Origin: Lophium mytilinum
Lineage: Eukaryota; Ascomycota; Dothideomycetes; Mytilinidiales; Mytilinidiaceae
Direction of reading: 5' to 3'
DNA: 64,000 nt
Assembly (NCBI GenBank): GCA_010093605.1
Contig: MU004186.1
Location: 17,765-81,764, forward strand
Part shown: positions 5,789-60,920 of the stretch, in pieces
How the letters are laid out: the number at the start of each line of letters is the position of its first letter
Numbering within the stretch: position 1 is the stretch's first letter
Program-made: the position numbers and the translations under genes
The notes under the pieces: model-generated
What the model was told of the DNA's origin: nothing
Seen by the model: only the letters and a program-made list of their open reading frames with translations
Database searches by the model: none

Positions 5789-5940
5789 TATAGTATATAT
5801 TTAAATACTATTCTTAGAAGCGGACCTAGTAAAGTTTATAGTACGCGTTTAAATACTATTTTTAGAAGTAGATCTAGTAAAGTTTATAGTATATATTCTA
5901 TTACTACTCTCTACTATAGAGTTAATCTAGTAAACTTTAT
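5789..5940. repeat. 48-bp tandem repeat inside the RIP block
   Basis: About three degenerate units start near 5789, 5837 and 5885, with a fourth partial start near 5938. Each begins TATAGT and the better-preserved ones run through TTTAAATACTAT and end in CTAGTAAAGT. The second unit keeps a CGCG island where its neighbours read ATAT. Confidence 0.7.
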
Positions 5941-7381
5941 AGTAGCTACTCTCTATATACCTATAGTATACTCTACTTATATTAATATAGATATAGGGCC
6001 CTAATACTATATCTTAAATATCTAAATTCTAGCTACTTACTATATAAATTATAGTTAAGAGCTATATATTCTATAATATTAAACTAGATTAAGTATAACT
6101 AGTATATTATTACTATTATATAGAGAAAGATAGATATATTTTTAAAGTTCTCTAGATAGTACTAGATAAAGCTAATAAGCTCTTTATAATAATAATTAGC
6201 TTTCTTTAAATAAATTTCTACTTACTACCTCTAAAGTAGTAGTAGAGTAGCTCTTTCTAGGCTTCTCTTCTCTAGTAAATCCCTACTAGACTTAAGCTAA
6301 TTTCTAATTATATACTTCTTCTCTTAATCTTTAATCTTCTAGAGTACTAGAATTTTAAGAACCTTAGCTCTATATATAGAATAACTTAATATATATATTA
6401 CTATATATACTTAGATATATAGTTATCTAAATATATAATAGTAGAAGAGAATAATTACTTTATATCTATATTTAGATTTATAGTACTACTACTTATATAT
6501 TTAATACTATCTCTATAACTAGATTATATTATACTCTATATACTAGATTATAAAGCCTACTAGTAGATACACCCTCTTTTTAAGTTTTAGTAGGGTTAAG
6601 ATACTAAGTCTAGTAGTAGTCTTATTAGTTAAAACTAATACGCCCTAGTTATTCTATATATAAGAGAATACTATATATCTAACTAGAAGTACTACCTAGA
6701 TAGTAATTAGCTAGGGGTATTTATTTAACTACCTATTTCTTTCTTTATTACTAGAATTTACCCGCTAGTATATTACCTTATATAGAGTAGTATAGGCTAT
6801 AATAAAGGTATAGTAGTAGTAAAGTATTCTTATATATTGCTTATTATACTCTATAACTTCTATTTTAATAATTCTCTCTATATTATAGTAGTAAGCTTTT
6901 CTATCTAGTAATTTCTCTTCTAGCTATAGAGTTTAGTATAGCTAATAAAGGGGCGTAGTAAGAATAGAAAACTAACCTAATATTTAGAAGCTACTAAGTA
7001 AGATAGATAAAAATAATATAAGCTAGTTAGTTACTATTTATACTTTCTAGTTTAAAGGGTTTATATACTTATTAAATAGACGCTATAGAGAGCTAATATA
7101 ATTAGAATACTATATCTCTCTATATAGCTAGTTATCTAGATATAGAATATACTAATTAAATAAGCTACTAGCTAAAATTATTAAGGCTAAAGGTATTAAT
7201 ATATCTACTAAAAGTAATAATATAGTAACTATACCGCGGTAGAATATAAAGGTTAAGAGTAGTCTAGTTTATAAGCTAAAATAATTCTTAGTAGTAGTAC
7301 TAATCTACTCTATAACTAATTTCTATAAGCTTTACTAACTATATATATACTATTTATAGCTTTAACCTTATTCCTTTTTTT

Positions 7382-7513
7382 TAGTAATTTCTATTACTTT
7401 ATATAGCTTTACTAACTCTATTATTTAGTACTTTCTATTATTTTATATAGCTTTACTAACTCTATTATTTAGTAATTTCTATTATTTTATATAGCTTTAC
7501 TAACTCTATTATT
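7382..7513. repeat. 44-bp tandem repeat, three units
   Basis: Three nearly identical 44-bp units start near 7382, 7426 and 7470. Each contains TATATAGCTTTACTAACTCT followed by ATTATTTAG. They lie wholly inside the RIP-saturated block and differ at one or two positions, so they may have duplicated after most of the mutation. Confidence 0.8.
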
Positions 7514-10164
7514 TACTTTTAATTTTCTCTACTTATTTTTATAACTAATAACTAGAAAGAGGCTTAGTTTTACCTTAAAAAGGGTTATAAAGCTAAATTC
7601 TAAGTAATATATTTACCTCTATATAAGTTAAACTTAACTCTACTAGTATTATATAGTAGGGGGCTTATAGATAGAATTAATAATATTTATATATTAAGAG
7701 ATAAATTCTTATAGAATTATAATATATATAGAGGGCCTAGATATATTTAAGCCTAAAGTAAATATATAACTTATAGGGGCCTTATAAATTTATAGCTTAT
7801 AAGGCGCTATATAGAAAGAATATATATAGTTTTACTATTAAGCTATATAGTTTTACTATAAGCTATCTATTTACTATAGATACTTTAGTTACCTTATACT
7901 ACTTCTTCTATTAAAGAGTTTAACTCTAAATCTATATAGCCTTATTAAAATAACTCTAAAACTCTATAGGGAAAAAAATAAAAGAAATAAAGAGTACTAT
8001 AGTATATATAGAGTTATATATTACTAGTAAAAGCTATATATAAAAGTAGTATTAAATTTAAGTTTTAAATACTAGCTATTTAGTATAGATATTTATATCT
8101 TATATAGAGAGTTTATAATATAAAAAGTTTTATATTATTACTTTAAAGCTCTATTTCTATACTACTAGCTTTCTATAGAGAGGCTATATATAGTTATACT
8201 ATTAATTTAAGGTTCTAGCGCTAGTAGTAATAGTAATACTCTATATACTTATATATAGAGTATATATATAGCCTACTATATATATAGTAAAATTTAAAAA
8301 GACTTCTAATCTATAGTATAGAATACTACTATAGTTATTTAATAGAGTAATTACTATACTCTACTAGTAGGTTAGAGTAGATAAAAGGGCCTATAGATTT
8401 ATAATAATTATCTATTATAGAGTAGAGTTTTCTAATATCTATCTTAGATTTAGCTATCTTCTAAGGTTACTAAATATATAGATAGGTATTATTATATACT
8501 TTTTACTACCTTAGATTTAAATTCTAGTATATATATATTTTTCTTTTTACTTCTTATAGTATTATATTAGCTTTTAGTATATATAATATAGATATAGAGG
8601 CCTCTAAAAAATATTAATAATATAGGCCTTTATATCTAGTAGATAATATACTTATAGAAAGGCTATATATAGTATTACTATAGTATTATATAGTCTTTTA
8701 TTATATATAATATCTATAGAGGGCCTATATTCTAAAAAGAAAGTATAAAATAGAGGTAATATAATTATTCTTAGATCTTATAGTATAGAAATATCTTTAA
8801 TAGCCTTTTAGAGCCTTTAGAATCTTAGTACTACTATTTAAATATTTATATATATAGTATTAGGAGTTATACTAATATTATCTATATATATATTATATTA
8901 TTATTATAATTTAGTAGCTAGTAGCTATATAATCTAGTAGTAACCCTAATTAGATTTCTAAGTATAAGAATCTAACCTAGGCTCTCTTAGCTTTTTCTTC
9001 TCTATACTCTACTTCTTTAAAAGGTTTTAAATAGAAAAAGACTTAAAAGTATCTATACTCTTACTACTTAATTACTTATAAGTAGAATATTATATCTTTA
9101 AAAGCGGGGTAGATATTATAGTACTATAATAAGATATTAAATAATACTAAGCTATTACTCTTTAGTATATTATTTATAAACTATTCTACTATAATAGAAA
9201 ATATATTAACTAATTCTAGAAAACCTCTATAATTATCTAGCGTAGTTATATTTTTAATATTTACTTAAGCCTATTCTAAATATAAGAAAATAATAAAGTA
9301 ATTTATAGATATATATAAATAAATATAGAAGCTAAAAGATAAAAGAAAAAACTACCTAAGTTATTATAGAATAATTATATAATCTAATATAAGATAGAAT
9401 TTATTAACTACTATAATAAGTTCTTTAAAAATAGAAATAAATCTATTTTATATAATAAGTTTTATAACTCTATTAATAAGTATAAGTTTAAAAAATAGGT
9501 TCTTAACCTAGAAAGTCTTAAGCTAGTACTTAAGTAAACTATAACTACTTTAAACTTAACTATATTTACTCTTTCTATTTACCGCCTACTACTATCTTCT
9601 ATAGAGTTTAGTAACCTAAAGTAGACTTATAAATCTCTTTTTTAGTAGCCTTTAAGTATAGCGTCTATACTAGAAAGTAGGCACTTTTAAATATTACTAC
9701 TCTCTACTCTATTCTAGAAACTAAAAAGTAAGCTAACTCTATTTACTATAAGTGCGGTTTAGTTATATTATAATATAAGGTAAGTTACTAACTAAATATT
9801 AGGCTAAGAATAAAAATAATTATTCTAAATTAAAGGCTAGAATATATAGATATATAGATAAGAAGGCTTACTATAAAGTAAGATCTAAAACTTATTTATA
9901 AGTATATAGATAAGATTACTCTAAAGTAATAACTATAATCTATAGTTAAATAAATAAAAGAGGCCTTTTTTAAGGGTCTATAGATAACTATAAGTATAAA
10001 AATATAGTTAAGGCTAGAGATAGATATATATAGCCTCTTTTATAGAAAATATTAGTATAATATATAGATAGATATATACTAACTAAGTAAGTTATATAGC
10101 TAAATATATAGTATAAATTATATATTTTAAAAGAGGTTAGTATTTTTAGTATAGAAAGGTAGTT

Positions 10165-10700
10165 AAAAGAAGAAGCCTAAAAAGAAGTAGTACTATATAT
10201 CTAGTAGCTATTTTTTCTTTTTATCTATTAGAAATCTACTACTACTAAGAATATTAAAGAAGGTACTATATACCTAGTAGCTACCTTCCCCCTTTACTTA
10301 TCTAGAATCTACTGTTATCTACCTTCTACTACTACTAAGCAGGGCTTAGAGTTAATTAAACAGAGGGTACGATCGAGTTAATCTCGGGCCTTACAGTACC
10401 GTGTACGGTGGCATGGCCTTACAGTTGGTCCGAGATTAACTAGAAGCTCCTAATTAGTCGATTAAACCCGGGCCCTGCCACCGAGGACTTTAAAGATAGC
10501 ATTGCTATACCTTTAAATAGCTATCTCCTCCCTGCACTCACTAGGAATCCACTGCCACCAAGGACTTTAAAGATAGCCCTGCTACACATCCAAGCAGCTG
10601 CCTCATCCCTTCACTCACCAGGAATCTACTGCCACCGAGGACCTCGAAGAAGGCACTGCTACACCTCCAAGCCAGCATCTCAACCAATTCGGCCATCGCG
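10165..10700. repeat. 77-bp satellite crossing the RIP boundary
   Basis: Units carry a core GAATCTACTGCCACCGAGG followed by an AAG-GCACTGCTACACC stretch. Clean copies start near 10543 and 10620, exactly 77 bp apart, and a copy disrupted by the MITE lies before them. Left of 10340, copies at about 10228-10305 and 10306-10339 show the same unit with C-to-T and G-to-A changes throughout. The array therefore runs from RIP-mutated into unmutated DNA. Confidence 0.75.
10340..10477. mobile_element. 138-bp hAT-like MITE at the RIP boundary
   Basis: The element begins CAGGGCTTAGAG and ends with the reverse complement of CAGGGCCCGGGT. The two termini match over about 17 bases apart from mostly transition differences. 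It is flanked by 8-bp direct repeats: CTACTAAG (10332-10339) on the left and CCACCGAG (10478-10485) on the right, which differ only by RIP-type transitions. CAGGG ends with 8-bp target duplications are typical of hAT transposons. The interior folds on itself through GTTAATCTCGG and CCGAGATTAAC. It has no coding capacity. Confidence 0.75.
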
Positions 10701-31281: not shown

Positions 31282-31865
31282 ACCATCTGGACCCCAAGCC
31301 ATCGTCACAGGCCTAGAAAGTAACACATACAGCCTAGAGAACCTCGTTGCACCATCTGGAGCCTCAGCCAACTGGGGCGCGAACTATCGCCACATATTCC
31401 CAAACCCAGAGAGTGACACAGACAGCCCAAGGCTTCCCCATAACGATCTGGATCCTCAAACTTCTAGAACATCAACCATCTGGAGCCTCAGCCAACTGGG
31501 GCGCCCACTATCGCCACATATTTCCACCCCAGAGAGTGACACAGACAGCCCAGAAAGCCGACGTTGAATCATCTGGAGCCTCAGCCAGATGGGCCCCGAA
31601 ACAGCGCCACATATTTCCACCCCAGAGAGTGACACAGACAGCCCAAGGCCCCTCCATACCGATCTGGACCCTCAACCCTCTATGATATCAACCATCTGGA
31701 GCCTCAGCCAGCGGGGGACATGAAACATCGCCACATATTTCCACCCCAGAAAGTGACACAGACAGCCCAGAGAACACACGTTGAACCATCTGGACCCCCA
31801 GCCATCGTCACATATTACCACCCCAGAGAGTGGCACAGACAGCCCAAGGCCCCTCCATTGAATAC
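31282..31865. repeat. Higher-order tandem repeat of alternating long and short units
   Basis: Units begin at 31282, 31351, 31475, 31568, 31691 and 31785, each with ACCATCTGG (ATCATCTGG in one), and contain CGCCACATATTTCCACCCCA and GAGTGACACAGACAGCCC. Lengths of the four full units are 124, 93, 123 and 94. Long units end in a GATCTGGA...CCTCAA...ATCA tail and short ones in a CGTTGA tail. The true period is therefore a long-plus-short pair of about 217 bp, repeated twice with partial units at each end. No protein role is evident. Confidence 0.85.
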
Positions 31866-32718: not shown

Positions 32719-35717
32719 ATGGCGACCTTTGCACAATTGCGGGGCGAATTCTACGTCTGGGCCTTCGAACGTGCAGCCCACTGGGAAACTGCTCGGAAAC
32801 CCAGACTTCTGAGCTGGTTTCACACGCTGGCGATTCCAATCATCATCCTCTGCATCTGGGGACTCTTCCTCACGTCTGGTCACACGGAACCCGCACCAGT
32901 CGATCTATCCACGCCCTCGATCCCGCAACTCTCGACTTTTGAAAGTCTTTTGCAAGCAGTCCATCTTCGCAGCCAACCAGACTTGCCCGTCGAACCAGAA
33001 ACCCACGAGCCCGTGCCTCTAGATGTGCTCTGGACCCTCAGCACCTACAAGCCAGCAGCAGACGCCGTTATCGAGTTTTACGTAGGATGGTTATGGTGGA
33101 AAATGGTCGATGCCGTCGCCCTGCTGGTGGTCGGATTCTTTTACTCGCTTCGCTGGAGGATGGCTTCGGTCCTATATCGGCAAGGCAGCTTCGACAAGTA
33201 AGTCGAAACGATCATTGCTCTCAACCTACTAGTGCTAATTGTTCCAGGCGTACGTCAAAGCGGAAAGGAATGTATGCGAACGATGAGACGCTCACCATCC
33301 TACGCCAATTGTTCCCAGACCAGAACTGGCCGAATAAGATGAAGCCCACCGAGCTGAACAATCAGCTTCGAGACATCCTCAAAGTCAGCGGAACCAACAT
33401 CCGCCGACCACAGCTCACAGGATCATCCTCAACGGTAGCTGCCCTTCCTCTGCTGCAGCAAGAGACCTCTGCCCCCGCCAAAACCTCCGCAGCAATAGAA
33501 GGCGTCCTTCCTCATCACAGACCAGCCTCCGTCATGCCATCCTCTTCGACGTTAGCCTTCTCCTCGCAGCAGAAGCATGCAGCGAATCTTGCCGCCAATA
33601 CAGCCTCCACGTCCCAAATAATGGACCCGCAATCTACCAATCCACCCGCAACAACGTCCTATATCCACCAAAACACACGCACCTCGCCAGCTCGCTCAGA
33701 AACAATGCAATTCCCCGAATCGGACGGTCTCAGCAATACCCTGCAGTACGGCGACGACGAGTCTCCTGTCCAGCGAGTGATCGTCGACAAGGGCAAGGCG
33801 AGGGCTACAGACTCACAAGTTCAAGAACAAGAACGCAGTCACAGACCATGGCGCAAGCCGGTTTCCGCAACTGATCCGAGGTCTGATAGTCCATGGGAGG
33901 AAGAGCAGTCTCAGCCCGAATACGAGGACTCAGAACAAGAAGAAGAAGAGCCCACCGCGAGACGGAGACCAGGCAGAAAACCAATCACATGCGACAAGTG
34001 CCGCGTTGATAAGAGAAAGTGCAGCAAGACCCAGCCTTGTACATACTGTCAGGAGTGGGATGTCGAATGCACGTGGAATGTTCATTTTTCGAGAAATCAC
34101 TTGCTGAAGGTGTACGTCGACAGAAAAAATGGATCTGTCCCCGAAGAAGAGCACCAACCGATCGACGATGAAGCATCGAGACATGACTCTCGTGAGTTCG
34201 GATCATCACCTCCACATCCTGAGTCAGTCGAAAGCGTGTCCAAGCGACGTTTAGACGGAAACTCCCACTACGAACTCGATGCACCGCCTATCAAGAAGCC
34301 TCGACTCCAGACGTACGCCACTTCTCGGCGGACTATTCAAAACACGCCCGTGGTCGACAGCGAGGCAACAGACCCCGATCTTTCACCCTCTCTCAACCAG
34401 CTTCCCTCGTCAGATGCTTCCAGCATACACGACACCGTCACCGTCCAGCCTCCGCCTCCTGCGAGACGACATGTCACTCAATGGCCCTCAGGTTCAGTTA
34501 CAAAGAGTGGTTCGGGTATCCGCAAGATGGTGAAATCTAACGGAAAGGATTCTCTCATGAAAAAGGCCGTTCTCGCAAATGCAACTCTCCGCAACACCGC
34601 CAAAAACGCACCTGGGCAAAGTCACCAAATCCCGTCTCCTCTCGACGGCGCCGACCCTTACTCGCGCCTGCCTTCGTCTCAATTGTTTTCTGAATACATT
34701 CCGGGACTTCAATCCGATCCATCTGAGGACAGTACGCAAGACAGACGCCGTTTCAAGACTCGAAACTCCCCACCAGCCAGTCGAGCCCTCCTACATCAAC
34801 ATTCTACGGAGTTCATGCGAGCTGCAGAAGAGGACGTCCGCAGGCGGATCGAGGCCAGGTTAGCAGAGGAGCTAAAGCAACCGATAGAGAACATCTGCCG
34901 CCCGTCTCTCGTCGCACTTCAATCTGACTTTGACTCGTGGCGTCCGACTGCAATCATGGCATGGGTTATGCTCCGCCCATTCATTCCCAATCTCAAACCT
35001 TGGGGCATGCTCATTCGACAGACCATATTCGACACGAACGGACCGGAAGTCTTCGACGGCCATTGCATCGAGAACCCAGCTCAGGCCAGATGGCTTACCC
35101 GACTCCGCTTCTTCTGCGCAGGACATAAACACCCATGCTTTGTCCGTTTGCAGACAATTCTGATGCTCAAGCTTGGATGTGGCCTGCTCTCCGAGGAAGA
35201 GTGGACTCACTGGGTCTCCCCCGGGGACTTTGATGCTTCGCATCTATGCCATCGATCCTGGTGTTTCCGCCCGACGTGCATGGTGGTGGAACCAAAGCAA
35301 TCGAATCTCGCAAGGACCCGTTGCTGTGCATACAAGGAGTGCGTGTGTGGACTCACGCCGCGTTGCCGTATCGAGCTCTTCATTGAGAAGAAGAGTGTTG
35401 TTCAAGCAGCCACTGCGACTCGAATCGAACATGCAAACGTCTATCCGCTGCAATGCCCATATACTCATTGTCGTGGCAGCAAATTTGCAACGCTAAACAA
35501 GTTGCTGGAGCATTGTGTCAAACGTCATCCGACCTTCGAAGGTGAGGCTTTGTGTCCTTTCGAAGAGTGCAAGCGAAAGAATGCGAAGAGCTCTCAGAGC
35601 TTATTCCACCACGCGAGAGATTCCCACAGACTGTATGATATCTGGGAACAGGCTCATCTTTACACTCGTCTCCTCCCACCGTCGCTGCGTCGCGATGAGG
35701 ACGAGCATCCAGTTTAA
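32719..35717 (+). CDS. Membrane-anchored Zn2Cys6 / His-Me nuclease-like / C2H2 protein
   Basis: Two exons, 32719-33197 and 33248-35717, join across a 50-bp intron (GTAAGT donor, GCTAAT branch, CAG acceptor) to give 982 residues. Residues 30-53 (TLAIPIIILCIWGLFLTS) and 125-148 are hydrophobic helices. At about 407-433 lies a perfect fungal Zn2Cys6 cluster (C-x2-C-x6-C-x5-C-x2-C-x6-C) after a basic GRKP stretch and a long acidic, disordered region. At about 822-870 ASHLCHRSWC, then PTC and SNLARTRC, match the zinc-binding His-Me finger of I-PpoI-type homing endonucleases (ASHLCHNTRC in I-PpoI). The catalytic-type His and metal-type Asn are kept, while one zinc-ligand His is replaced by Cys. Two C2H2-like fingers follow (about 894-955). 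DNA binding and cleavage are inferences. A membrane-tethered factor is odd, and the first exon could be a separate short gene. Confidence 0.75.
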
Positions 35718-36004: not shown

Positions 36005-37264
36005 ATGGCGAATCCTTTCACGGGCGAGCCAGCATGGCTGACGACACCAGATCTCCCGCCTCTCATCACTTACCCATACGATCCAGACGAAAAGGACGTG
36101 ACCAAGCCAGTCGGCGCCACAACCAGCATTGGAGGTTACAACGACCAAGGGACCGAGAAGATGACAGCGGAACGCAGGAGAGCGACAGCAAAATTATTCT
36201 TCTTCCGATATGGCACTTTCACCAAGGACATGGCCGCCATCTCTGCCGGTAAGTGTTCAGATGCCGAGTTCCAGCGCCTGTGGAAAGAAGAGCTGTCAGG
36301 ACTCGACTCTCGATGGACAAGCGAAATGGTCTCAGCATCGTCATGGCTAAACAGCTTCGTTCGCGGACAAGTCATGTTTTTTGACTTCATGAATCACATG
36401 CACAACCTTGCCCGGCAAGCCAAGTTGCTTGAACTCCCACCCACCATTGGCACCGAAACTGCGAATCAGAAGCAGAAGCGAGAGCGAAAGGCCGCGCGTT
36501 TCAAGGACTCCTTCCTCAGTCACCAGTTGCGCCTCCGCACGAGAACAGGCTCTGCAGTCGCCCAAGCCGAGACGGAACGTACGGCTGCAAGGGCTGCAGC
36601 ACTCATTGCGACCAATGCCAAAGCTGCAGATATCCGCATAGCAACTGCGGAGCGAGCTCTCGCCCATTACCGGTCACTCGACGACAAAGCACGCGCTCCT
36701 GTGGCTTCCGATCGCCAGATCTTTTCTGCGTCTGACATGCCGGGCGAATTTATTCGCTACCGCCACCTCACACCTGAAGGCATCCAGCAATTCTGGCTCC
36801 AACGATTCTCGTTCGACGTAGCGAGGACATGGTGGTGGGAGTTTGCTGGCGTGGTAGCGATCCGGTAAGTTTATCATCTAAAAAGGCGGGAAACATAGCT
36901 AATTCAGTGTAGGGAAACGCTCCAAACGAAACCGATTGATCGACAACTCATACATCGGTTCGCCACAGCCTGTCATTACTTGTGGAAATTCGTTCTGGGT
37001 CGCGAATTAGAAAACGAAAGAGTGCAACAGCAGCTCGACGACACGGCCCTGAGGGTTGGCCTACGCCTACCCATCCTGCGCTTCAAGGTCGCCGATGCGA
37101 TTAGGACTATCCACTTCAGGTATTATCACGACGAGACGAAGTATCCTGGCATCAGCGCGATTATGGTCCCCCGCAAGACTACCAGCAAGAAGCGCAAAAG
37201 AGCTGCGGTCGATGACGACCACCTCCAATTTCCCGACAATTTCGATTTTGCGGCTATGAGCTGA
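36005..37264 (+). CDS. Unknown lineage-specific protein with nuclear-type basic tail
   Basis: Exons 36005-36864 and 36913-37264 join through a 48-bp intron (GTAAGT donor, GCTAAT branch, TAG acceptor) to give 403 residues. A TATA-like TATATAAG lies at 35919, 86 bp before the ATG. The N-terminus is proline-rich (LTTPDLPPLITYPYDPDEKD). Residues about 50-130 look helical, followed by a charged KQKRERKAARFKD segment and an alanine-rich helix that could form a coiled coil. The C-terminus has TSKKRKRAAVDDD, a classical nuclear-localisation pattern. No known domain is recognised. It lies 290 bp downstream of the nuclease-like gene on the same strand, and both have the same simple two-exon structure. 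Confidence 0.75.
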
Positions 37265-37553: not shown

Positions 37554-37933
37554 CTAGACTGCCGACTCATTCGTCTTCGTCGTCCTCTCAGGAACGACCT
37601 TCCCGTCCTCGTCGCAGAGCATGAGCTCTATCTTCCCTTTGTAGTCATAGGAGTCAGGGTCGATGGGGTTCGTCGTGCCACCCGGCATTGTGTAGCTATG
37701 TCATCCTCAGTTGATATTTCTACACAGTGGAGAGAAGATGTACCTACGTAAAGCCTGCGATGAACTCGAAGTTCGTGCGAACTGTTCCTCCAGCACCTTT
37801 TACGGCCTCCACCAGGTTGAGAAAGAGGTGAGGATTTCTGTCGTCGACGACGATGAGCTGTTCTCATTAGAGGGGCTTGCCATCTTTACGGTGCTACTAA
37901 GCCACGTACTTGGAAAGTTTGCTTAGTTGACAT
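37554..37933 (-). CDS. Small 91-aa protein in three exons, unknown function
   Basis: No single open frame shows this gene. On the minus strand ATG 37933 opens exon 1 (37910-37933, MSTKQTFQ). A 52-bp intron (GTACGT, CTAAT, CAG) leads to exon 2 (37748-37857, LIVVDDRNPHLFLNLVEAVK...). A second 52-bp intron (GTAGGT, TAG) leads to exon 3 (37554-37695, ending ERTTKTNESAV and TAG). Phases agree at both junctions and the 276 coding bases give 91 residues with well-formed composition (DSYDYKGKIELMLCDEDGKV). There is no signal peptide, membrane helix or known motif. It is divergent from the RING gene, with 276 bp between the two ATGs, so the pair may share a promoter. Confidence 0.65.
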
Positions 37934-38209
37934 CGTGAGTATCGCAGTGGGGAACTTGGGTCGTATGTGGAGTTGTGGAGGTGGATTGAGGATTCTGGAT
38001 CGTGGAGTCGCAGGTTGGCGGAGTTGCAGAACATTCGGAAAGTGACGTGGCGCAGCACGAGCCGGGACGTGCGTGCCTCCGGGTACCTGCAGCGGGCCGC
38101 CCTGACGCTAGAATCGTCGAACATCATCTCGCCTAGCCCGCAGATCCACCCCTCACCCATCCAACCCAGAAACTCCACCAAGCATACACCACCCTTCCAA
38201 CGACTTCAA

Positions 38210-39113
38210 ATGGCGGCCAACATCACATACGGACCAGCCCAGATGGCATTCCACTGCTCAATTTGCCAAGAAGATGGCCTAGTTGACACCGCCAACACGG
38301 CACATACTGGATGCGGTCACCTTGTGCACGGTGACTGCATGTTCGATCACAACGCAAGCCGCATTGGAATGAATCGCACCATTCTCAGCTGCCCAGCCTG
38401 CCGCACCACTCTCGAAGCATCCCAAGTACAAGCCAGATCGGTGGACGCACCGCCCTCGATACCGGAAACGGCACAATTTCGAGAATACGCATCGCGCCGC
38501 GACGAGATTCTCAACCTTAACGCTATCGTGCTCGCTGCTGCGCGCCCCGCTGACCAGGCACTCCCCGAGAACCGTATCTCTCCTGAGCAGCTCGCGGTGG
38601 CGACGCGGCGGCTTCGGCAGCTGGAGGCGGAGGAAGCAGCACAACTGTAGGTGGGCCGAACTCCGTCCATCTTACACAGGACCTAATCATACCAACAGAC
38701 ATGCCACTCAGCGCCAGCAAATACGCACCGCACGCGAGCTGCGCATGCAGCAATCCGCTAGCACAGTGCCAATGCACATCCGCTTCCAGATCGACAGCAT
38801 GCATCACGCCTACCGTCAGACCGTCTCTCCGACCAACACTATATACTCGACCACGCTCGCAAGCCACCCCGGCGCACAGCCCATCCTACTACGTCTGCTC
38901 ATGGGCGACGGACACGCATACTTTGCTTGGATGAACCGAAGCGATACCGTGGGTGACGTCGGAAGTGCGTTGTTTGGGGTGCACTGGGGGTGGTTTGGTG
39001 GCGAGATACATAATCTTGCGCCTTGTCTGCACTACGGCGGTGAGCGTTTGCAATGGACAGACCGTTTGGCGGCAAAGGGCATCGGGATGGGCGGCTTAGT
39101 CAAATATGAATAG
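38210..39113 (+). CDS. RING-H2 finger protein, probable ubiquitin ligase
   Basis: Exons 38210-38646 and 38699-39113 (52-bp intron, GTAGGT donor, CCTAAT branch, CAG acceptor) give 283 residues. Residues about 12-65 hold a RING-H2: C-x2-C (CSIC), then CGHLVHGDC giving Cys, two His and Cys at canonical spacing, then CPAC. RING-H2 domains recruit an E2 enzyme for substrate ubiquitination. The middle is helical and charged (RRLRQLEAEEAAQL). The C-terminal part (IRFQIDSMHHAYRQ, then HWGWFGGEIHNLAPCLHYGG) has no known domain and is presumably the substrate-binding part. The ATG at 38210 was chosen because the open frame upstream to 37967 overlaps the divergent promoter; a longer N-terminus is possible. 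Confidence 0.8.
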
Positions 39114-39225: not shown

Positions 39226-40021
39226 TTAGGTAATCAATATGGTTTGGGAGCTCCTCACTTTCTCTATGCTCGTTGCAATGCCATTACTTGGTTTATTTTG
39301 AACAACGTCTGATTGGTGGTGAGGATTGTGATTATTTTGGCTGTGGTGTTGGGGATCTTGGTGGGGGTGGCGTTGTGGCTGAGAACCACGCGCTACCGGA
39401 GTAATAGATCTTGCGACGCCCGGGAGATATAAACATCTACGGAGCCTTTCACTTCCAATTCTTTGCACCTCTTGTCCTGAGCTCTGCCAGCGTCCTGAAG
39501 GCAAACCTCGCGCCCTCAAATCATCAACGCAACGCGGCTGCACCGCAACGAGCCAACTTGCCTGCGATTGAAATCTTCACCTGAAGAAGGTATATCATCC
39601 GTCGTGTCCACGACTTCGAGCGGTTCCGCAACTCGTAGCGGAGGCAACCAAAGATCTGGGTTCGACGAGGACTTTCTTTCACGTTAGAACTCAAACGTAC
39701 GGCTGCGTTTACAGTCCCAGCTTGCACCGGGGTTTCGAAAGCCGTCGTATTATGCCACTGGCGGAACTTTTCAAAATTACTTTTATTAAAGACACCCGGC
39801 ATCGACTCCCACGGTTTTTCACTTGGCTCTAGCGCTCAGAAAGCGCGAGTGACGTCATTGTTCATCAACAGAAAAATTTTCTCTTCTACCTCACTTCGCT
39901 CGCCTTCAACAGCACACTCCTACACCTCCAACACCAACTCCAACACCTCCAACACCTCTTCACCACCCTTGTTGCATGAGCACACACTCCTCTCTCTCTA
40001 TCTCTTGTCGCTACAAGCAGC
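39226..40021. other. Promoter region of the helicase gene
   Basis: The last 140 bases are pyrimidine-rich with CAACACCTCCAACACC repeats, typical of fungal promoter and leader sequence, and precede ATG 40022. A 92-codon minus-strand frame from ATG 39802 to 39524 is present, but its composition is not convincing and I do not call it a gene. Confidence 0.45.
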
Positions 40022-43000
40022 ATGTCGTCGTCCGACTACGCCGCTGCGCGTAGCTACAGCAGGTCCACCGCGGTGTACCGCAACATCCACGCCGGTCATC
40101 GTGCTCGTTACGGCGCTCCCATCAAGGCCGAGGAGTACGAGGAAGAACAGCACGTTCTCGACTTAGATGGCGAGCAAAAAGCACCCGACACCGAGTACGA
40201 CGCTCTCGAAGAGGCTTTGAAGCAGAAGGTAGGTCTCACCTGGACCGCTGCCGTCTCTTTCCAGGTCCAGATCGACGCCGAACACCGCACCGGGTTCATA
40301 TACCCCGGCGACCTTCCAGACGTCGTTGATGCTGCGGCCCGCACGACTACAGACATTGAGGCTGCAATTGCTGCGCGAGCTGCCGAGCATGAGGCTGGGG
40401 ACATCAACCTGCCTCGCGTCAATCCTCGACGCGCCCGAGTCGCGGAGCGGGTTGCTACTGCCATCGCAGAAGAAGTACCCGCTGCACCAGCCACTCATGC
40501 CAATATCCCCGCTGAGGAAGAGGGTCTCGAGTCCACTTCAGAAGAGGCAGCGTCTCTCCCTCTACCAGTCACTCGTCCGGGTTCCCCCACTTCAGAAGAG
40601 GCAGCGTCTCTCCCTCTACCAGTCACTNNNNNNNNNNNNNNNNNNNNNNNNNNNNNNNNNNNNNNNNNNNNNNNNNNNNNNNNNNNNNNNNNNNNNNNNN
40701 NNNNNNNNNNNNNNNNNNNNNNNNNNNNNNNNNNNNNNNNNNNNNNNNNNNNNNNNNNNNNNNNNNNNNNNNNNNNNTCAGAAGAGGCAGCGTCTCTCCC
40801 TCTACCAGTCACTCGTCCGGGTTCCCCCACTTCAGAAGAGACAGCGTCTCTCCCTCTACCAGTCACTCGTCCCGGTTCCCCCACTTCAGAAGAGGCACCG
40901 TCTCTCCCTCTCACTGTTCGCTCTGCACCAGTCACTCGTCCCGGTACACCCGTTCAAGATGATACGGCCGCCACCGCAGAAGAGCCACGTTCGCCCTCCC
41001 CTACCTTTCACTCTGCACCCGTCACTCGTTCCGGCTCCCCTACTGGAGAAGAGACGCCCTGCGGTGCACAAGAGCCTCCGTCCCCCACTGAGGTATCCCC
41101 CTTCTTTGGACGCAAAGGCAAAGGACGCGCGACTGAGCCACCGGAAGAAGCAGAGATGCCCACCGGAAATGCTTCCGCTTCGGGCGAGCCGCAAGAGGAA
41201 GACACCGGAAGTGCTTCCGGCTCGGCAGACCCGTCAGGTGACGAGCAGAATGGCACACCTCTGTACGCCTTGTACTCGGTGGGAAAGATCACGAGAAATA
41301 GGGAGGTCATTACGGATGACGACGAGTTCCTTCCACCGGATCCGGTCAAAGACGCAGAGGTGACCACCGCAGAGGATGGCGGACGTAGGGGTCGACCTCG
41401 CATCACCCTCGAGGACCTGCAAGTCAAACGAAACCCGCTGCACTCGGCCGTCACGGTCAACTTCAAGACCTTCCGCAACTTGGAAGATCTCACGTATTGC
41501 GCGTTAGTCTTTAAGTCATACTTTGTCGACAACTCGCACAAGGAGCCCCGTCAAGACTATCGTCGTTTCGACATCCTGTTTGGTGCAGACGATATTGGCC
41601 GCCCAGACGACGCCGGGTCTTTCAAAACTATATCCTGTGAAACCGTCTCAGACGCCAGCAACATCCACCTTCTGCGCAAACTATTCCCCCACTTGTCTAG
41701 GGAATACTTTACCGAGCTCATTGACGAAATGACCACAGATAACGATCTGTATCTTGTCAGGCTTCACTGGAACCCAGACAAGGTATGGGCTTCTGGTCTC
41801 TGGGGGACAGACTCTTTGCATGATGTAAAGGGTCATCTGCACGAATCTCTGCGAGTGGTCCTCCGTCGCCCCACCACGTTCAACGTGCTGGTTCGTAGCC
41901 GAGACATGACGTCCGAAATGGACAAAATGGCCACGATCATGTCTCGCCAACGAGCCGTCAACCCCTACCAGAACTTCTGGCTGGATGCTGCAAATCGTAG
42001 AGGCCACTTCCCCGGCCTCGGCAACATGTGTGCGCGCGAGACCAGACCTTCCGTTATCGCTCCCCAGCGGAACAGCTTCCCCAGCTTCTATGAGTTCAAG
42101 ACGGCGGCCTCGGTTCACATCGTGAATCTCTATGAAGTCGAGCAAGCTGCTACAAAGGAGTGGTGTGCGACTGCATTCGCCATCCCTATCCCATTCATCG
42201 ATAACCATCAGAAGATCCTTCTGGTTATCAAGGCTCCAGGGCAGACCAACGACGATAATCAGCTTCTGAACGCCAAGAAGCTGCCACAGCTCGGTCTTGG
42301 AGACACAATTGAATTCCAAATGGGGATTGACACGGTCATGGGGCCTAACATGTGGAAAGCCACCGTGGTTGAGGACTCCGTGGTCTCGCCCTTCGACACC
42401 ATCACTCTGGAAGCACGGCGCCCAATCGACAAAGAGACGAAGGAGTTCATCGACATTCCTTTCCCTATCCCGTCCGAGACCCTCCTCGATCGGCGTATTG
42501 AGCATGCACGCCCAGTCGTAGCCAAGAACATGCCCGAGTTCACCATCACGGCGTGGAAAAAAGGGTCCAGCACCATGTTTAAAAAGTACCTGAATGGCTT
42601 GCGGAAACTTGAACCCATACTTGAGGACCAGACGACGGTTCCCATCGAGTACGAAGCAGCAAAATGGCGACGACAGTTCCTGACCGGCTCAGACTTCGAG
42701 GACATCCCCCGCACCGGCCTCAAGGACCTAGTGCCAGAAGAGATGCGCGAACGCGCTCTGGCTCTCGCTCTCGATGGCGCGAAACCCTCGACCCGAGAGG
42801 CTATTCTCTACCTCTGGGAGAATGGACTAGTCGCCCGCAATGGTCAGATCACTGGTGGGCCCGGAACCGGCAAGACGGACGCGCTGATTCGACTTGCGAT
42901 GGCATTGCAAGGACAAACCTGGTGGCACTTCTACGCGCCCGACCGCCTCACCGGGGCCTTAGAGACTCGCTACGGTTCCGCAGACGCACGTATTCTCATC

Positions 43001-45046
43001 GTCTCAACCGAGAATGCGACATGCGACGACATCTTTGAGAAGATTCGTCCGCGCCTTCGCCATGCGAAACAGCAACTGCTTCCCCATCTAACCCGCGCAC
43101 CAGTCATCGCGCGCGTCCACTCCATCAAACTAGAACTCGCAATCTTCGACTTCGTCAAAGACGAAGATAGTTTACGTGAGAGCCTCCCTGATATTCATGG
43201 AGACGAGTACGTCCAAGAATACCTGGCGGCAACGAGAGCTGGAAAGTCAACCGCAAACTCTATGATTCTTCATGATCACATCCGCACCAACACCAAAAAG
43301 TATGGCATGACCGACCGGAGAATGACTATTCCCAAGGAATCGCTAGGATACATCGCGGGTGGCTTGATTGGCATCCACACGCTACCCGAGGGTCTAGAAT
43401 TCCTCTTCAACCAGGCGGTTGCGGATCAGTTCGCCTTCTTGATAATCACTCACGGCAATCTACATGCGGACCCCCCCATCCAGCCCCAGGGACAAGAGCG
43501 CATCGATTACAAGAAAGGGAAGATGGATTTGTTTGCTGCGACCCTCGCCCTCGTCAATACTGCAGTCTGTACGGTATCAACTGCGATGGACAACCTCCTG
43601 GTCGAGCGCTCGGCGCATTTTATCGGTGTCGAAGAAGCTGGCCGCGCGCATCCGCGAGAGATTCATGCTCTAGAAGGCTTCTACCCCGCCTCGAATATCA
43701 TCCAGACTGGCGACCATCTTCAGCTAGCTCCCGAGGATATGATCTCGAACCGAGAAGATGGCTTCGCTGCACAAGCTAGCTTGTCAGAGCTGCACCGCCA
43801 ACTCATGAATGGTCTCCATACTCCCGTCATCCAGGAGACAAGCAGATTCTACAACTCTCAAGTCGCGGAAGTCTCACGGATTTTCAATTCGAGCCTCGTC
43901 CCAGACGAGAACATGCTCGCCAAGGTTCCCGACAAGGCGTGGCGAGACCTCGCACGCGATCTGACGGGCCTCCCAGAGGCAGACGCGTACATGATAAACA
44001 CTGAGGATGCGGCTGCCATAAAGAATGCCTCCGGATCCAAGTACAATACCCTCCACGCAGTGATAGCCATGAACATTTTAGAGCGCGCTATCGTCGTCTA
44101 CGACATCAAAGGCTCCGATCTGCTTTACCTGTCGCCATACCGTGGAGCCGTCGAAGTGCTACGACGTTTGATTTTCCATATGATCAACTTGGCCGATGGT
44201 TTCGATGATGGCCCGCTCGTCAAGTTCGCAAACGGCCTCAAAGAAGTCGCGTCACAGATCATGACTGTCGACAGCGCCATGGGTCGTGAGCGACGATACG
44301 CCATCTTTGACACCACAGTCTCCGGTACGCGAGGCTTCACTGACGATCGTGGTCGCCTGAACGTTGGATCGACCCGTGGACGAGCTGGGCTGATCGTCAT
44401 CATGGCTGTGAACGCTTGTCAGAAGTACAGGTCCCCAGATGGCAAGGCGTTTGACGAGATTATCCAGCACTTCCGGATCAATAATCGCCTCTTCACCATG
44501 TCGCACGCGCAGCGCGCACAGCTCCGCAGCTACGACGACATCCTCAGCTCCATGGGGCTGTGGCCGCTGAAGTTCCCCGGCAAGAAAGGCCCGAACTTCA
44601 ACGACTGGAGCAAGCATCTCGATGCCCGTGACTCCCTCGCCGAGCGCAAGCGACGCAAGGTAGACGATGACGCTTCAGACCCAATCCAAGAGTGGGCAAA
44701 GGGCGATACTCCCGCAGAGGATGAGACTGATGCGAACGACGTTGATTCGGGCAACAACACGAACGACGCTGATTGGGGCAACAAGACGTCAGGGAATGCG
44801 AACGACGCTGATTGGGGCAACAAGACGTCAGGGAATGCGAACGACGCTGACTGGGGCAACAACACGTCTGCGAATGCCAACTCTGGCTGGAACTCTACAG
44901 GGGTGGACGATCAGGGTTTCAACACCGCTGATGTCGATCTTGCGAAGCAACAGTCGCTCGAATCTCAGGCCGAGTGGAATGAGTTCGGCCCTCAATCCAA
45001 TGGCGAGTCGTCGCAGGCGGGTGCGCAGGGTGGCATCAAGTGGTAG
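40022..45046 (+). CDS. Large SF1 (UPF1/NFX1-like) helicase with repeat-bearing ends
   Basis: One uninterrupted frame of 1674 codons, 50 of them unknown because of a 150-base gap. Residues about 170-300 are a disordered region with 18-residue repeats (SEEAASLPLPVTRPGSPT). The central part has no motif I know. The helicase core has Walker A GGPGTGKT at 945-952, motif II VEEAGRA at 1203-1209, motif III GDHLQLAP at 1230-1237, and motifs V/VI with VDSAMGRERRYAIF and RLNVGSTRGRAGL (about 1445). EEA in place of DEA, with GDHxQL, resembles the NFX1/ZNFX1 branch of UPF1-like superfamily 1 helicases, which act on RNA or RNA-DNA; that placement is inference. Near the C-terminus come three or four NDADWGN(K/N)TSGNA repeats. 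The lack of introns in 5 kb is notable beside its intron-bearing neighbours. Confidence 0.85.
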   Translation: MSSSDYAAARSYSRSTAVYRNIHAGHRARYGAPIKAEEYEEEQHVLDLDGEQKAPDTEYDALEEALKQKVGLTWTAAVSFQVQIDAEHRTGFIYPGDLPDVVDAAARTTTDIEAAIAARAAEHEAGDINLPRVNPRRARVAERVATAIAEEVPAAPATHANIPAEEEGLESTSEEAASLPLPVTRPGSPTSEEAASLPLPVTXXXXXXXXXXXXXXXXXXXXXXXXXXXXXXXXXXXXXXXXXXXXXXXXXXSEEAASLPLPVTRPGSPTSEETASLPLPVTRPGSPTSEEAPSLPLTVRSAPVTRPGTPVQDDTAATAEEPRSPSPTFHSAPVTRSGSPTGEETPCGAQEPPSPTEVSPFFGRKGKGRATEPPEEAEMPTGNASASGEPQEEDTGSASGSADPSGDEQNGTPLYALYSVGKITRNREVITDDDEFLPPDPVKDAEVTTAEDGGRRGRPRITLEDLQVKRNPLHSAVTVNFKTFRNLEDLTYCALVFKSYFVDNSHKEPRQDYRRFDILFGADDIGRPDDAGSFKTISCETVSDASNIHLLRKLFPHLSREYFTELIDEMTTDNDLYLVRLHWNPDKVWASGLWGTDSLHDVKGHLHESLRVVLRRPTTFNVLVRSRDMTSEMDKMATIMSRQRAVNPYQNFWLDAANRRGHFPGLGNMCARETRPSVIAPQRNSFPSFYEFKTAASVHIVNLYEVEQAATKEWCATAFAIPIPFIDNHQKILLVIKAPGQTNDDNQLLNAKKLPQLGLGDTIEFQMGIDTVMGPNMWKATVVEDSVVSPFDTITLEARRPIDKETKEFIDIPFPIPSETLLDRRIEHARPVVAKNMPEFTITAWKKGSSTMFKKYLNGLRKLEPILEDQTTVPIEYEAAKWRRQFLTGSDFEDIPRTGLKDLVPEEMRERALALALDGAKPSTREAILYLWENGLVARNGQITGGPGTGKTDALIRLAMALQGQTWWHFYAPDRLTGALETRYGSADARILIVSTENATCDDIFEKIRPRLRHAKQQLLPHLTRAPVIARVHSIKLELAIFDFVKDEDSLRESLPDIHGDEYVQEYLAATRAGKSTANSMILHDHIRTNTKKYGMTDRRMTIPKESLGYIAGGLIGIHTLPEGLEFLFNQAVADQFAFLIITHGNLHADPPIQPQGQERIDYKKGKMDLFAATLALVNTAVCTVSTAMDNLLVERSAHFIGVEEAGRAHPREIHALEGFYPASNIIQTGDHLQLAPEDMISNREDGFAAQASLSELHRQLMNGLHTPVIQETSRFYNSQVAEVSRIFNSSLVPDENMLAKVPDKAWRDLARDLTGLPEADAYMINTEDAAAIKNASGSKYNTLHAVIAMNILERAIVVYDIKGSDLLYLSPYRGAVEVLRRLIFHMINLADGFDDGPLVKFANGLKEVASQIMTVDSAMGRERRYAIFDTTVSGTRGFTDDRGRLNVGSTRGRAGLIVIMAVNACQKYRSPDGKAFDEIIQHFRINNRLFTMSHAQRAQLRSYDDILSSMGLWPLKFPGKKGPNFNDWSKHLDARDSLAERKRRKVDDDASDPIQEWAKGDTPAEDETDANDVDSGNNTNDADWGNKTSGNANDADWGNKTSGNANDADWGNNTSANANSGWNSTGVDDQGFNTADVDLAKQQSLESQAEWNEFGPQSNGESSQAGAQGGIKW
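40537..40915 (+). repeat. 54-bp coding minisatellite (18-residue units) with gap
   Basis: Units of 54 bp encode SEEAASLPLPVTRPGSPT, with near-perfect copies before and after the gap and diverged copies at the 3' edge (SEEAPSLPLTV). The gap falls inside the array, so the true copy number is unknown. The period is a multiple of three, so length changes keep the frame. Confidence 0.9.
40628..40777. other. Assembly gap (150 N) in the helicase minisatellite
   Basis: The flanks are the same repeat unit, so this is a collapsed or unresolved tandem array. The gap keeps the frame as written, but its length is not evidence of the real copy number. Confidence 0.95.
44735..44885 (+). repeat. 39-bp coding repeat at the helicase C-terminus
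   Basis: Units of 39 bp encode NDADWGNKTSGNA. Two are almost identical at nucleotide level, followed by NDADWGNNTSANA and preceded by a shorter degenerate unit (NDVDSGNNT). The period again preserves the frame. Confidence 0.85.
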
Positions 45047-57025: not shown

Positions 57026-60000
57026 TCAAATCGGTTCATCTCTAGGTTCAATGAGCACCTCATTAACCGCCACATGTGCCGGCTGTCGTAGCGCATACAC
57101 GATACTATTTGCAACATCGTCCGCATCCAGAATCTTCGCTCCACTCGGCTCGCCATACTTCTTAACAGCTTCTTGATCGCGGCTCATGCCCAGCAACGCG
57201 GTCGCGGTATTACCCGGCTGCACGCTCGTAACCCTCAACCCAGTTCCAGCAGTCTCTAGACGTAGAGATTGCAAGGTAGCTTCAACGAAGAATTTACTCG
57301 CGCTATACACACCCAAGCCAGGGAAGACCTTCCGTCCAGCATCAGACGAAATAGCAACGATGTGTCCACTTCCTTTCGCTAGCATGTTAGGGATGGATGA
57401 AGCCAAAACGTGAAGGAGACCTTTGCAATTGACGTCGACGGTCCTATCCCAGTCGTCCACGTGAGTATTGGCCATCATGGTGAAGTACATGACACCGGCG
57501 CAGGAGACGACGATATCGACCGGACCCAGCTCGTCGTTGGCGGCCTTGAAGAGAGCGGTGACTTGCTCTGGGGACGTTACATCTGTCGGGCAAATGATAG
57601 CGCGGCCTTCGCGGACGACGAGACGGCGTTTCACATCTTCGAGGGCGTCCAAGCGACGAGCAGCGAGAGCGACGTGACACCCTTCTCTGGCGAGAGCGGA
57701 AGCGACAGCAGCACCAATGCCCGAGGACGCACCGGTTACGACTGCTACACGCCCACTGAGGGGTCCTTTGCGGATGGGCTGGGCAGATCCGCCAAGAGAG
57801 TGTTGGCGGGAGGGCGCTCGGGAGAGCCAGCCACGGGCAAACCAATGGCGAGTGTAGGTTTCGAGCAAGATACTGTCGACCTTTGGCCGTTCGACCACTA
57901 AGCGGAAGGGCCGGGTGGCAGCGTTGTTGAGAACGACAATACCACGGAGGAACTCAACCGTGGGCATACCGCTGCGGAGAATGTCGACGGTGAAGGAACC
58001 GTCACCACCTTTGACAGATCCTCTCTTCTCAGTCCAGAGAGACACCCATTCGTCAAAGCTCAGTCGCTGAGTTGAGTATCCAAGCTCCTTCAGATCCTCA
58101 AACACGTCCTTCGTGTCAACGGGGTCGGGGTCGCCCAGATGGAAGACGACTTGCTCTATGTCTGTCTGACAAGAGAGATGGATGATAGCTTTACTAACGA
58201 AGTCGACAGGAGTCATCTCAGCGCGCCATCCTTCAACGTCAGGGGCGTAGCCGAGTTGAATGGATTCCACAATCAAAGCCGTCAAAAGATCCCAGGCGTT
58301 GGCCGCACCCGTTGCACTGTGGCCGCTGATTGTGCCTGCTCGGTGGATCTTGACTGGGAGCCCACGACGGCCAGCCTCCAGCACAAGCTGCTCTGCCACC
58401 CACTTAGTCTGCCCATAGCCGTCTAGCAGCTTCGTAGGTACATCGTCGACATCGAGCATCTCGGATTCGGGCCAGCCTTTCTCTGGGGATGGCGGCAGAA
58501 CGCCATTGGTAGACACGTACTGCACGGTAGCGCCACCTTGGCATGCCAGGCGAAGAATTTCTCTCGTGCCTCCGACGTTGGGCGCTCGTAGTGGAGCATA
58601 GGGATACACCAAGTTGACGGTAGCGGCAGCGTGGACAATGACATCAACACGAGTAGCGAGCTTTTCAAAGGCGTCCGGGGACAGACCAAACCGCTTTCGA
58701 GACAAATTACCCGGGACAATCTCGACACGCTCCATGATGGAATCACGCCACAAACCCATATCTAGCAGATTTCGACGTATTCTCGCTATGCCTCCAGGCT
58801 GATCGTCCTCCTCAGGGTCGTTGAATCGTACAAGACATAAGATCTGTGCTGATGTGCTTTCCAATAGATCATTCAGTAGAAAAGCGCCCAAAAATCCAGT
58901 CACACCGGTTAAGAGGACTGTCTTTGCTTGACTGACTGAGCATATCTTGGTATCGCTGGAGGGTCGTATGTCATCATCAAGGGTGGCATCGGCACGCAGC
59001 ACAGCGGGAAGATCCGCTTGGACCGCCGCTGTGTGTCCGTCTCTCACATCGCGCACCGTCTTCAGGTGGCCAAGGAGGGTCGTATCTCCAGCAAGACGAG
59101 CGATAGGGATGCGGAAGCCGAAAGTCCTGGACAGCCTCGATGCAAGATCAGCGAGTGACAATGAATGTCCGCCCAGGTCAAAAAAGTTGTCTTCCGGTTT
59201 GATGAGATTTCGTGACGTTTTGAGGGCCGTTGCCCAAATTGTAGCGATGTCATCGATTCCAATTGGGTCCTCTTCTACCTTTTGACCATTGCCATTGACC
59301 GGGCTGGAGCTCCGTGGTGCGGGTAGGCGTTTCAGATCGACTTTGCCAGAGACTTCATGAGTAGGGAGTTCTTCGAGATCAACCCACAGAGCGGGGATCA
59401 TGTACGGTGCTAAATACGGCGCAAGAGTGCGACGCGCCGCTGGACTGTGGCCAGACTCGTTGATCTGTATGGCAGGGCGATTTGCTTTGTCGTCCTTGTC
59501 CTGGACGATGTACGCAACTAGTTGCCGTTCGAGGCCTTCACCATGGGCAACTACGGCGCAGCGGCTGACAGCTAGGTGCTTCACAATGTCGTTTTCTACT
59601 TTGCCAGGGACGACAGAGTAACCACGGAGCTTGATCATAGCCCCTACGCGACCAGTAATCTCGAGGAGCCCCGAAGGGAGCAACCGCGCGAGATCCCCGG
59701 TTCTATACATCAACGCTCCCGAAGTTGAATCGAACGGGTCCGGTAGAAATGCTTTTGCGGTGGTCTCGGGCCGGTTAAGATAACCCCTAGCAAGTAGAGG
59801 GCCGCCGACAAAGAGCTCTCCGCTCGTCCGCTCTTCTACTTTTTGGCCACTGTCATTGAGAATGTAAGTGTGCTTCAAGTCTAGCGGTGGACCAACGGGA
59901 CAATAGAAAGCATCTTCATCGAGCATTTCTTTGATGTCCCCGACAGCAACCTCATGAGTCTCACACGCACTGTAGCAATTGAGTAGCCGTGCCTTGGGAA

Positions 60001-60920
60001 GACCTCGAATGGCTCGACGGGCCAGGTCAGTCGTAACGACCTCGCCGTTCAGCCACAGCGTGCGTAGCTCTGGAAGACGGTCGTCAAGATGCGGGTTGCG
60101 GGCGAGTACGGTGGCTAGAAGGGTGGGAGTCATGAGAGTCTCGGTGATGTGCTTGGAAGCAAGCAGGTCAACCAGGGCAGCCGGGTCGTAGCTGACCTCG
60201 TCAGGAACAGCTACGACAGTTGCTCCTCGGAAAAGAGGACGCAGAATCTCCCATATGAAGAAGACGTTACAAGCTACACGGTCCCCTGGCTGGACGTCTT
60301 GGAAGCCGAATCTCAGCTCATATGAGAGAACTGGTGCTCTATGTGGGTTCGCAATGCCCTTTGGCTTCCCCGTGGTACCACTCGAATAAGCGACGAATCT
60401 AGGAAAGTTTAATAGAGCTGCGATGATAAGTATTCTGGCTTGCGAGATGAACATACGCAAGTCTCTCGAGGTCGTCATCCGCAGGTAGGGGAGAAGGCTC
60501 TTTCGTATGTCCATTGAGCTCCCGTGCTGGCTCATCGAGGGTTATGAGAGGAAAACCGCTCTTGATCTTACCGACCTCAGCCCTATACGTGACCACGACA
60601 GCCGGGTTGGCATCCTCAAGCACGTCGGCCAGAAGGTCTGGGGGATAGGCAAGCTCGAGCACCAAAAATGCGCCTCCCGCTCGAAGAGCTGCAAGACACG
60701 CAATCACATAGTGAGCACTCCGCGGTAGAAGCACACCAACGAGACTGTCGCGACCGACTCCGTAGCCGCGAAGGCGCTGGGAGAGGCGGTCAACCTCGTC
60801 ATCAAGCTCGGCGTACGTGTAGGTGGAACTCTCGTCTTCCAAGGCCACTAGATGGGGTGTTTGTTTAACCTGGTGGCGGAAGAGGGCGGCCAAGTCCTTG
60901 GTGGTGTCAATGATGGCCAT
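57026..60920 (-). CDS. ATRR: A-T-R-R NRPS-like reductase, probable glycine betaine reductase (ATRR)
   Basis: Exon 1 (60457-60920) and exon 2 (57026-60398) join across a 58-bp intron (GTATGT donor, TAG acceptor) to give 1278 residues. An adenylation domain has VAYSSGTTGKPKG (about 157-169), YSACET, YRTGDLARLLPSG, KLRGYSVVPGKVE and the catalytic-Lys motif SGKVDL. The carrier site is FFDLGGHSLSL, with the phosphopantetheine Ser near 566. The first reductase starts with LLTGVTGFLG (about 645) and has YGQTKWVAEQ. A second, short-chain dehydrogenase domain has TGASSGIG (about 1042) and YSASK (about 1185). This A-T-R1-R2 order and length match fungal ATRR, which reduces glycine betaine via its aldehyde to choline. 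Substrate is inferred from architecture only. No tailoring genes surround it, so it is not a biosynthetic cluster. Confidence 0.85.

Follow-up and report, generated by a model that had tools for sequence, protein, structure and literature searches.

The gene at positions 32719-35717 of the window raises the question of what a fungal protein may do that joins a Zn2Cys6 cluster to a His-Cys-box domain of the I-PpoI type, and whether such a domain still cuts DNA when it is part of an ordinary host gene. The window, i.e. the whole stretch of DNA that was analyzed, comprises 64,000 nt of Lophium mytilinum (assembly GCA_010093605.1, contig MU004186.1, positions 17,765-81,764 of the forward strand; this contig is called C6 below). 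The reading that we favor, with a probability of just under one in two (about 0.48), is that the locus is one nuclear gene, in which a His-Cys-box domain has been domesticated within a DNA-targeted, membrane-tethered host protein that probably nicks or cuts DNA.

The predicted gene lies on the plus strand, begins with an ATG at 32719, and consists of two exons, which together encode 982 amino acids in frame up to a stop at 35717. It contains the following features:

32719-33197, plus strand: exon 1, encoding two hydrophobic helices with an acidic loop between them; based on the open reading frame, the in-frame splice, and codon bias
32806-32880, plus strand: first hydrophobic helix, about residues 30-54; Kyte-Doolittle hydropathy up to 2.11 (from residue 34)
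33076-33156, plus strand: second hydrophobic helix, the weaker of the two, spanning about residues 120-146, with a basic stretch after it; Kyte-Doolittle hydropathy up to 1.57 (from residue 122)
33198-33247, plus strand: intron of the spliceosomal type, 50 nt, GTAAGT...CTAAT...CAG
33248-35717, plus strand: exon 2, a single open frame with the stop included; carries the Zn2Cys6 cluster, the His-Cys box, and the C-terminal finger candidates
33990-34070, plus strand: Zn2Cys6 binuclear cluster, residues 408-434; based on PF00172, the LAC9 and GAL4 matches, and the cysteine positions
34293-34304, plus strand: basic motif KKPR at residue 509; by motif match a possible nuclear import signal
34872-35381, plus strand: domain common to this protein and a paralogue on C18, residues about 702-871; BLASTP E = 2e-16
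35232-35366, plus strand: His-Cys box (I-PpoI-type), residues 822-866; based on PF05551, the residue map, and the profile match to I-PpoI
35454-35528, plus strand: C2H2-like finger candidate, residues 896-920; spacing only
35553-35627, plus strand: C2H2-like finger candidate, residues 929-953; spacing only

A regular expression for introns of this type found two places on the plus strand of 53.5 kb and none on the minus strand; over 30 mononucleotide-shuffled sequences, the average was 0.67. One of the two places is the intron described above, and the other, 36865-36912, is an in-frame intron that belongs to the next gene. Codon bias was trained on five further ORF pieces of the window. In each of the four gene segments it was positive for the annotated frame and negative for the remaining five, and this includes exon 1 (0.145 in frame vs. 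-0.068 to -0.403 in the five others). Only the two N-terminal hydrophobic helices depend on the splice that joins exon 1 to exon 2. The PF00172 and PF05551 matches share the one uninterrupted frame of exon 2, so their fusion is independent of splicing. The central proposal of a reading made earlier from the letters of this DNA (the sequence-only reading), a Zn2Cys6/I-PpoI-type fusion in one gene, thus holds, with both domains in a single frame and over their Pfam cutoffs.

Zn2Cys6 clusters are typical of fungal regulators and follow the spacing rule C-x2-C-x6-C-x5-12-C-x2-C-x6-8-C, which the protein satisfies with C408, C411, C418, C424, C427, and C434 (spacing 2-6-5-2-6). In hmmscan with the full protein, PF00172 (Zn2Cys6) matched residues 408-437 with 29.3 bits at a cutoff of 21, and phmmer with the cluster retrieved LAC9 (E = 8.5e-5) and GAL4 (E = 0.0051), in agreement with the textbook cluster that had been claimed. 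Besides PF00172 and PF05551, the 982-residue protein had no other Pfam match at E<=10; this includes the fungal regulatory (MHR) domain, which is common but not universal in Zn2Cys6 factors. Across the genome, PF00172 matches were present in at least 149 places (281 candidates, 150 scored), and PF05551 exceeded its cutoff in two of the two scored places. The frame in the window was the only one common to the two lists, with 150 of the 281 candidates scored for PF00172.

The PF05551 match, the zinc loop of I-PpoI-type endonucleases, covered residues 822-853 with 31.7 bits (cutoff 27) and corresponded only to positions 66-97 of the 131-position profile. The search for this loop and for Zn2Cys6 families that the sequence-only reading had proposed therefore placed both families above their curated cutoffs. 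To map the active site, the I-PpoI sequence was aligned to the protein without gaps, with identity at 12 of 31 residues. S824, H825, C827, C832, E841, N846, R849, and C852 are identical to I-PpoI S97, H98, C100, C105, E114, N119, R122, and C125. H825 and N846 lie 21 residues apart, as do their counterparts H98 and N119, and the catalytic-type His and Asn noted previously are accordingly present at I-PpoI spacing. None of 200,000 residue shuffles of residues 690-982 contained the core pattern, although this pattern was selected once the match was known.

The zinc-binding positions can be followed less strictly. H110 of I-PpoI is replaced by a cysteine (C837), C858, C860, and C866 occupy the places of C132, H134, and C138, each within one or two positions by manual reading, and C766 was paired with C41 by manual placement. 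The eight residues that we take to be the zinc ligands of I-PpoI would then correspond to C766, C827, C832, C837, C852, C858, C860, and C866, so that all eight positions are cysteines, two of which are histidines in I-PpoI, with C858 and C866 shifted by one. In gapped alignments with the C18 paralogue, C837 pairs with a cysteine four residues beyond the H110 position, which differs from the ungapped I-PpoI map and makes its assignment as a ligand insecure. Within the I-PpoI group, eight His and Cys residues are described as forming two zinc sites, and S97 and E114 as conserved (PMC9587614); H98 of I-PpoI is described as the primary proton acceptor (PMC11325842).

In the genome, the gene has one full-length place and one diverged paralogue, located on C18 (loci L002 and L007). 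Compared as a pair alone by BLASTP, the two proteins align with 28% identity over about 170 residues (19-188 of the 299-residue query; E as listed above), and tblastn gave 35% identity at E = 1.2e-7. In the paralogue, as read from the alignment, the catalytic His is replaced by Leu and the Asn by Gln, which suggests that the domain can persist in the genome without cleavage. Its 818-residue frame had no Pfam match at E<=5, so neither Zn2Cys6 nor PF05551 is recognized in it. The paralogue occupies 591-3044 of L007, and two finger-like motifs of the form C-x2-C...H were seen by eye upstream. A further protein, on C20 (loci L004 and L008), has a canonical I-PpoI-like box, with PF05551 scores of 27.5 bits (over the cutoff of 27) and 25.9 bits (just under it), and aligns weakly with the window protein (E = 0.068). 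Searches for relatives outside this genome gave no confirmed members: viral contigs contained 24 pattern stretches for the three-sequence alignment and two for the C20 segment, and bacterial and archaeal genome contigs contained 45 for the window domain, none of which was confirmed.

Sequence searches with the window protein alone did not reach I-PpoI. It was absent at E<=10 from the phmmer matches of residues 788-879, among which five formylglycine-enzyme matches (E = 1.2-1.3) were regarded as chance, and at the same threshold from the matches of a longer C-terminal piece against the PDB, where YY1 fingers were the sole match (E = 0.1). When the window sequence was combined with those from C18 and C20 into one profile, the best PDB match was I-PpoI (E = 0.0018). 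The same profile minus the C20 sequence found I-PpoI only at E = 0.67, and the C20 sequence alone gave E = 0.11, which indicates that the C20 sequence carries much of the signal. What ties the window protein to I-PpoI is chiefly PF05551, along with the residue pattern. Two AlphaFold2 models built from three-sequence alignments had mean pLDDT values of 34.0 and 40.3. The latter places a strand (824-827), a second strand (830-833), and a helix (842-855) around H825 and N846, in the expected order but at very low confidence, and its Foldseek search against the PDB returned eight matches at E<=10 and none at E<=0.001. Because the models are this poor, the His-Me assignment rests on sequence; of the His-Me finger of I-PpoI type that had been proposed, the sequence part stands (PF05551 and the residue map), and the fold is putative.

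The two C2H2 fingers that had also been read in the C-terminal part were not substantiated. Their spacing fits, but Pfam found no C2H2 match in the full protein at E<=10, and the YY1 match, which spans both candidates, is weak.

Hydropathy (Kyte-Doolittle, 19-residue mean) and charge are compatible with a transmembrane anchor at the N-terminus. The first helix is pronounced, and the second is weak and little above background, because hydropathy also reaches 1.42 within the nuclease-like domain (from residue 790). The sequence before the first helix contains five K/R and three D/E residues, the loop 52-118 two K/R and nine D/E, and the stretch 142-175 eight K/R and three D/E. By the positive-inside rule, basic flanks are found on the cytosolic side, and with an acidic loop between basic flanks, both termini of the protein would therefore face the cytosol or the nucleus. 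The pair of membrane helices that had been proposed is consequently in line with hydropathy and charge in its first member and only weakly so in its second.

In the favored reading, these helices would tether the protein to a membrane, plausibly the ER or the inner nuclear membrane, and leave its two ends facing the same side. A long low-complexity linker would lead to the Zn2Cys6 cluster, by which sites on the DNA would be chosen, and the His-Cys-box domain at the C-terminus would bind DNA and, because the catalytic residues are retained, would probably nick or cut it there with a divalent metal. As judged from these residues, cleavage is possible. A stronger version, in which the protein is an active membrane-tethered, zinc-cluster-targeted endonuclease that is kept at the nuclear envelope, or is set free from a membrane by a signal, and cuts selected sites in the cell's own or invading DNA, we consider unlikely.

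The first 10 kb of the window (1-10300) form an AT-rich, RIP-like block with near-complete depletion of CpA/TpG: over the first ten bins of 1 kb, GC is 0.21-0.26, (CA+TG)/(AC+GT) is 0.01-0.05, and the end at about 10,300 was set by 100-base bins. This block was said to adjoin the gene, which proved incorrect, as it lies 22 kb upstream. Within the gene itself, the RIP indices are normal (TA/AT 0.45, (CA+TG)/(AC+GT) 1.24) and the reading frame is intact, and a RIP connection was rejected. As the first base of the window is base 17,765 of C6, a subtelomeric location is likely, although no telomere was seen.

Several other features were observed nearby. About 0.9 kb upstream of the gene, an imperfect 217-bp tandem repeat (31315-31804) overlaps a 93-bp repeat (31477-31645). 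The next gene, at 36005-37264, has two exons and encodes 403 residues; neither exon has a Pfam match, and a genome search with the exon 1 part gave a single place at E<=1. It is followed by a frame with a RING-finger-like match just under the cutoff (37931-38650; 26.0 bits, cutoff 27.3) and by an open frame of 1688 residues (39980-45046) with internal tandem repeats and AAA_11/AAA_12 over the cutoff, which by these names we take to be a UPF1-like helicase. Short fragments similar to the latter, with stops, are found 9.3 kb from the far end of C6 (C6:2299394) and on C22. Further downstream, a long reverse-strand frame of 1171 residues (57026-60541) resembles, by eye, an NRPS-like adenylation-reductase protein.

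The most serious alternative to a cutting protein is a transcription regulator, in which the His-Cys box would be a non-cutting DNA-binding or structural zinc domain and the Zn2Cys6 cluster would give specificity. We hold this tentatively to be a real possibility. It is in keeping with the usual role of Zn2Cys6 clusters in fungi and their abundance in this genome, and with the loss of the catalytic His and Asn in the C18 paralogue. A precedent would be the Smad MH1 domain, for which an origin as a degraded homing endonuclease is proposed, reportedly so by the title of a 2001 paper by Grishin that PMC4999995 cites. However, the window protein keeps the catalytic-type S, H, E, and N at exact I-PpoI spacing, none of which a pure binding role needs, and has no MHR domain by Pfam at E<=10. 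On balance, a cutting protein seems to us slightly more probable than a regulator.

The two remaining alternatives concern the nature of the gene and its extent. It is distinctly improbable that the membrane exon is a separate gene and the product a soluble Zn2Cys6/His-Cys-box protein. Such a split would agree with the stop that unspliced exon 1 meets at the donor site and with the main frames of the C18 and C20 proteins, which have no strong hydrophobic helix (hydropathy maxima of 1.32 and 0.71); unassigned frames that precede the C18 gene contain stretches of up to 2.03, however, so that an upstream membrane exon may exist there as well. Moreover, the consensus 50-nt intron lies exactly at the frame joint, the frame continues across it, codon bias is seen in both exons, and the next gene has an intron of the same type. 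Least probable of all is that the gene is a selfish homing endonuclease gene standing on its own or encodes the nuclease of a transposon, for which KolobokP transposons, described as pairing an I-PpoI-like nuclease with a transposase (PMC9587614), provide a model. The single full-length place with one diverged paralogue speaks against mobility, no Rfam family, group I introns included, reached the gathering threshold in the window, and no transposase domain was found in the three neighboring ORFs given to Pfam or in the second exon of the next gene. A homing endonuclease gene would be expected inside a self-splicing intron or an intein, whereas the domain here belongs to an ordinary exon-intron gene, and the Pfam scan of the full protein gave no intein match at E<=10. 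The single full-length place and the Rfam result, together with the changed catalytic residues of the paralogue, make a domesticated homing endonuclease, as the sequence-only reading had suggested, a reasonable interpretation.

Compared with known systems, the parts of the protein are of known kinds, and what is new is their arrangement in one protein. Like I-PpoI, it has the catalytic His and Asn, the Ser and Glu, and counterparts of C100, C105, and C125 at the same spacing, and its remaining zinc positions, when placed manually, are cysteines too; unlike I-PpoI, it has cysteines for H110 and H134, and the domain is embedded in a 982-residue protein that also carries a zinc cluster and hydrophobic helices, with no group I intron over the Rfam threshold in the window. 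It shares cysteine spacing, PF00172, and the phmmer match to LAC9 with GAL4/LAC9-type regulators, but its cluster is central (residue 408) and a fungal regulatory domain is absent at E<=10. With Smad MH1, it would share the proposed recruitment of a homing-endonuclease fold into a regulator, although the window copy keeps the catalytic residues. The His-Me nuclease of KolobokP is likewise described as an I-PpoI-like nuclease outside group I introns (PMC9587614), but here there is one full-length place and no transposase among the ORFs scanned. In the open-licence PMC literature, searched by titles and abstract starts, we found no paper that describes a Zn2Cys6 and I-PpoI-type architecture, and none among the matches listed names both PF05551 and PF00172.

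Should the protein cut DNA, it would be a case in which nature has fused a fungal module for sequence-specific DNA binding to the active site of a homing endonuclease and tethered both to a membrane, and it would show how a host tames such nucleases. As an active, targeted endonuclease, it would parallel engineered zinc-finger nucleases as an example from nature. Should it not cut, the window copy, which has the catalytic residues, and the C18 paralogue, which has lost them, would be a pair suited to studying in a fungus how a nuclease turns into a regulator, as proposed for Smad.
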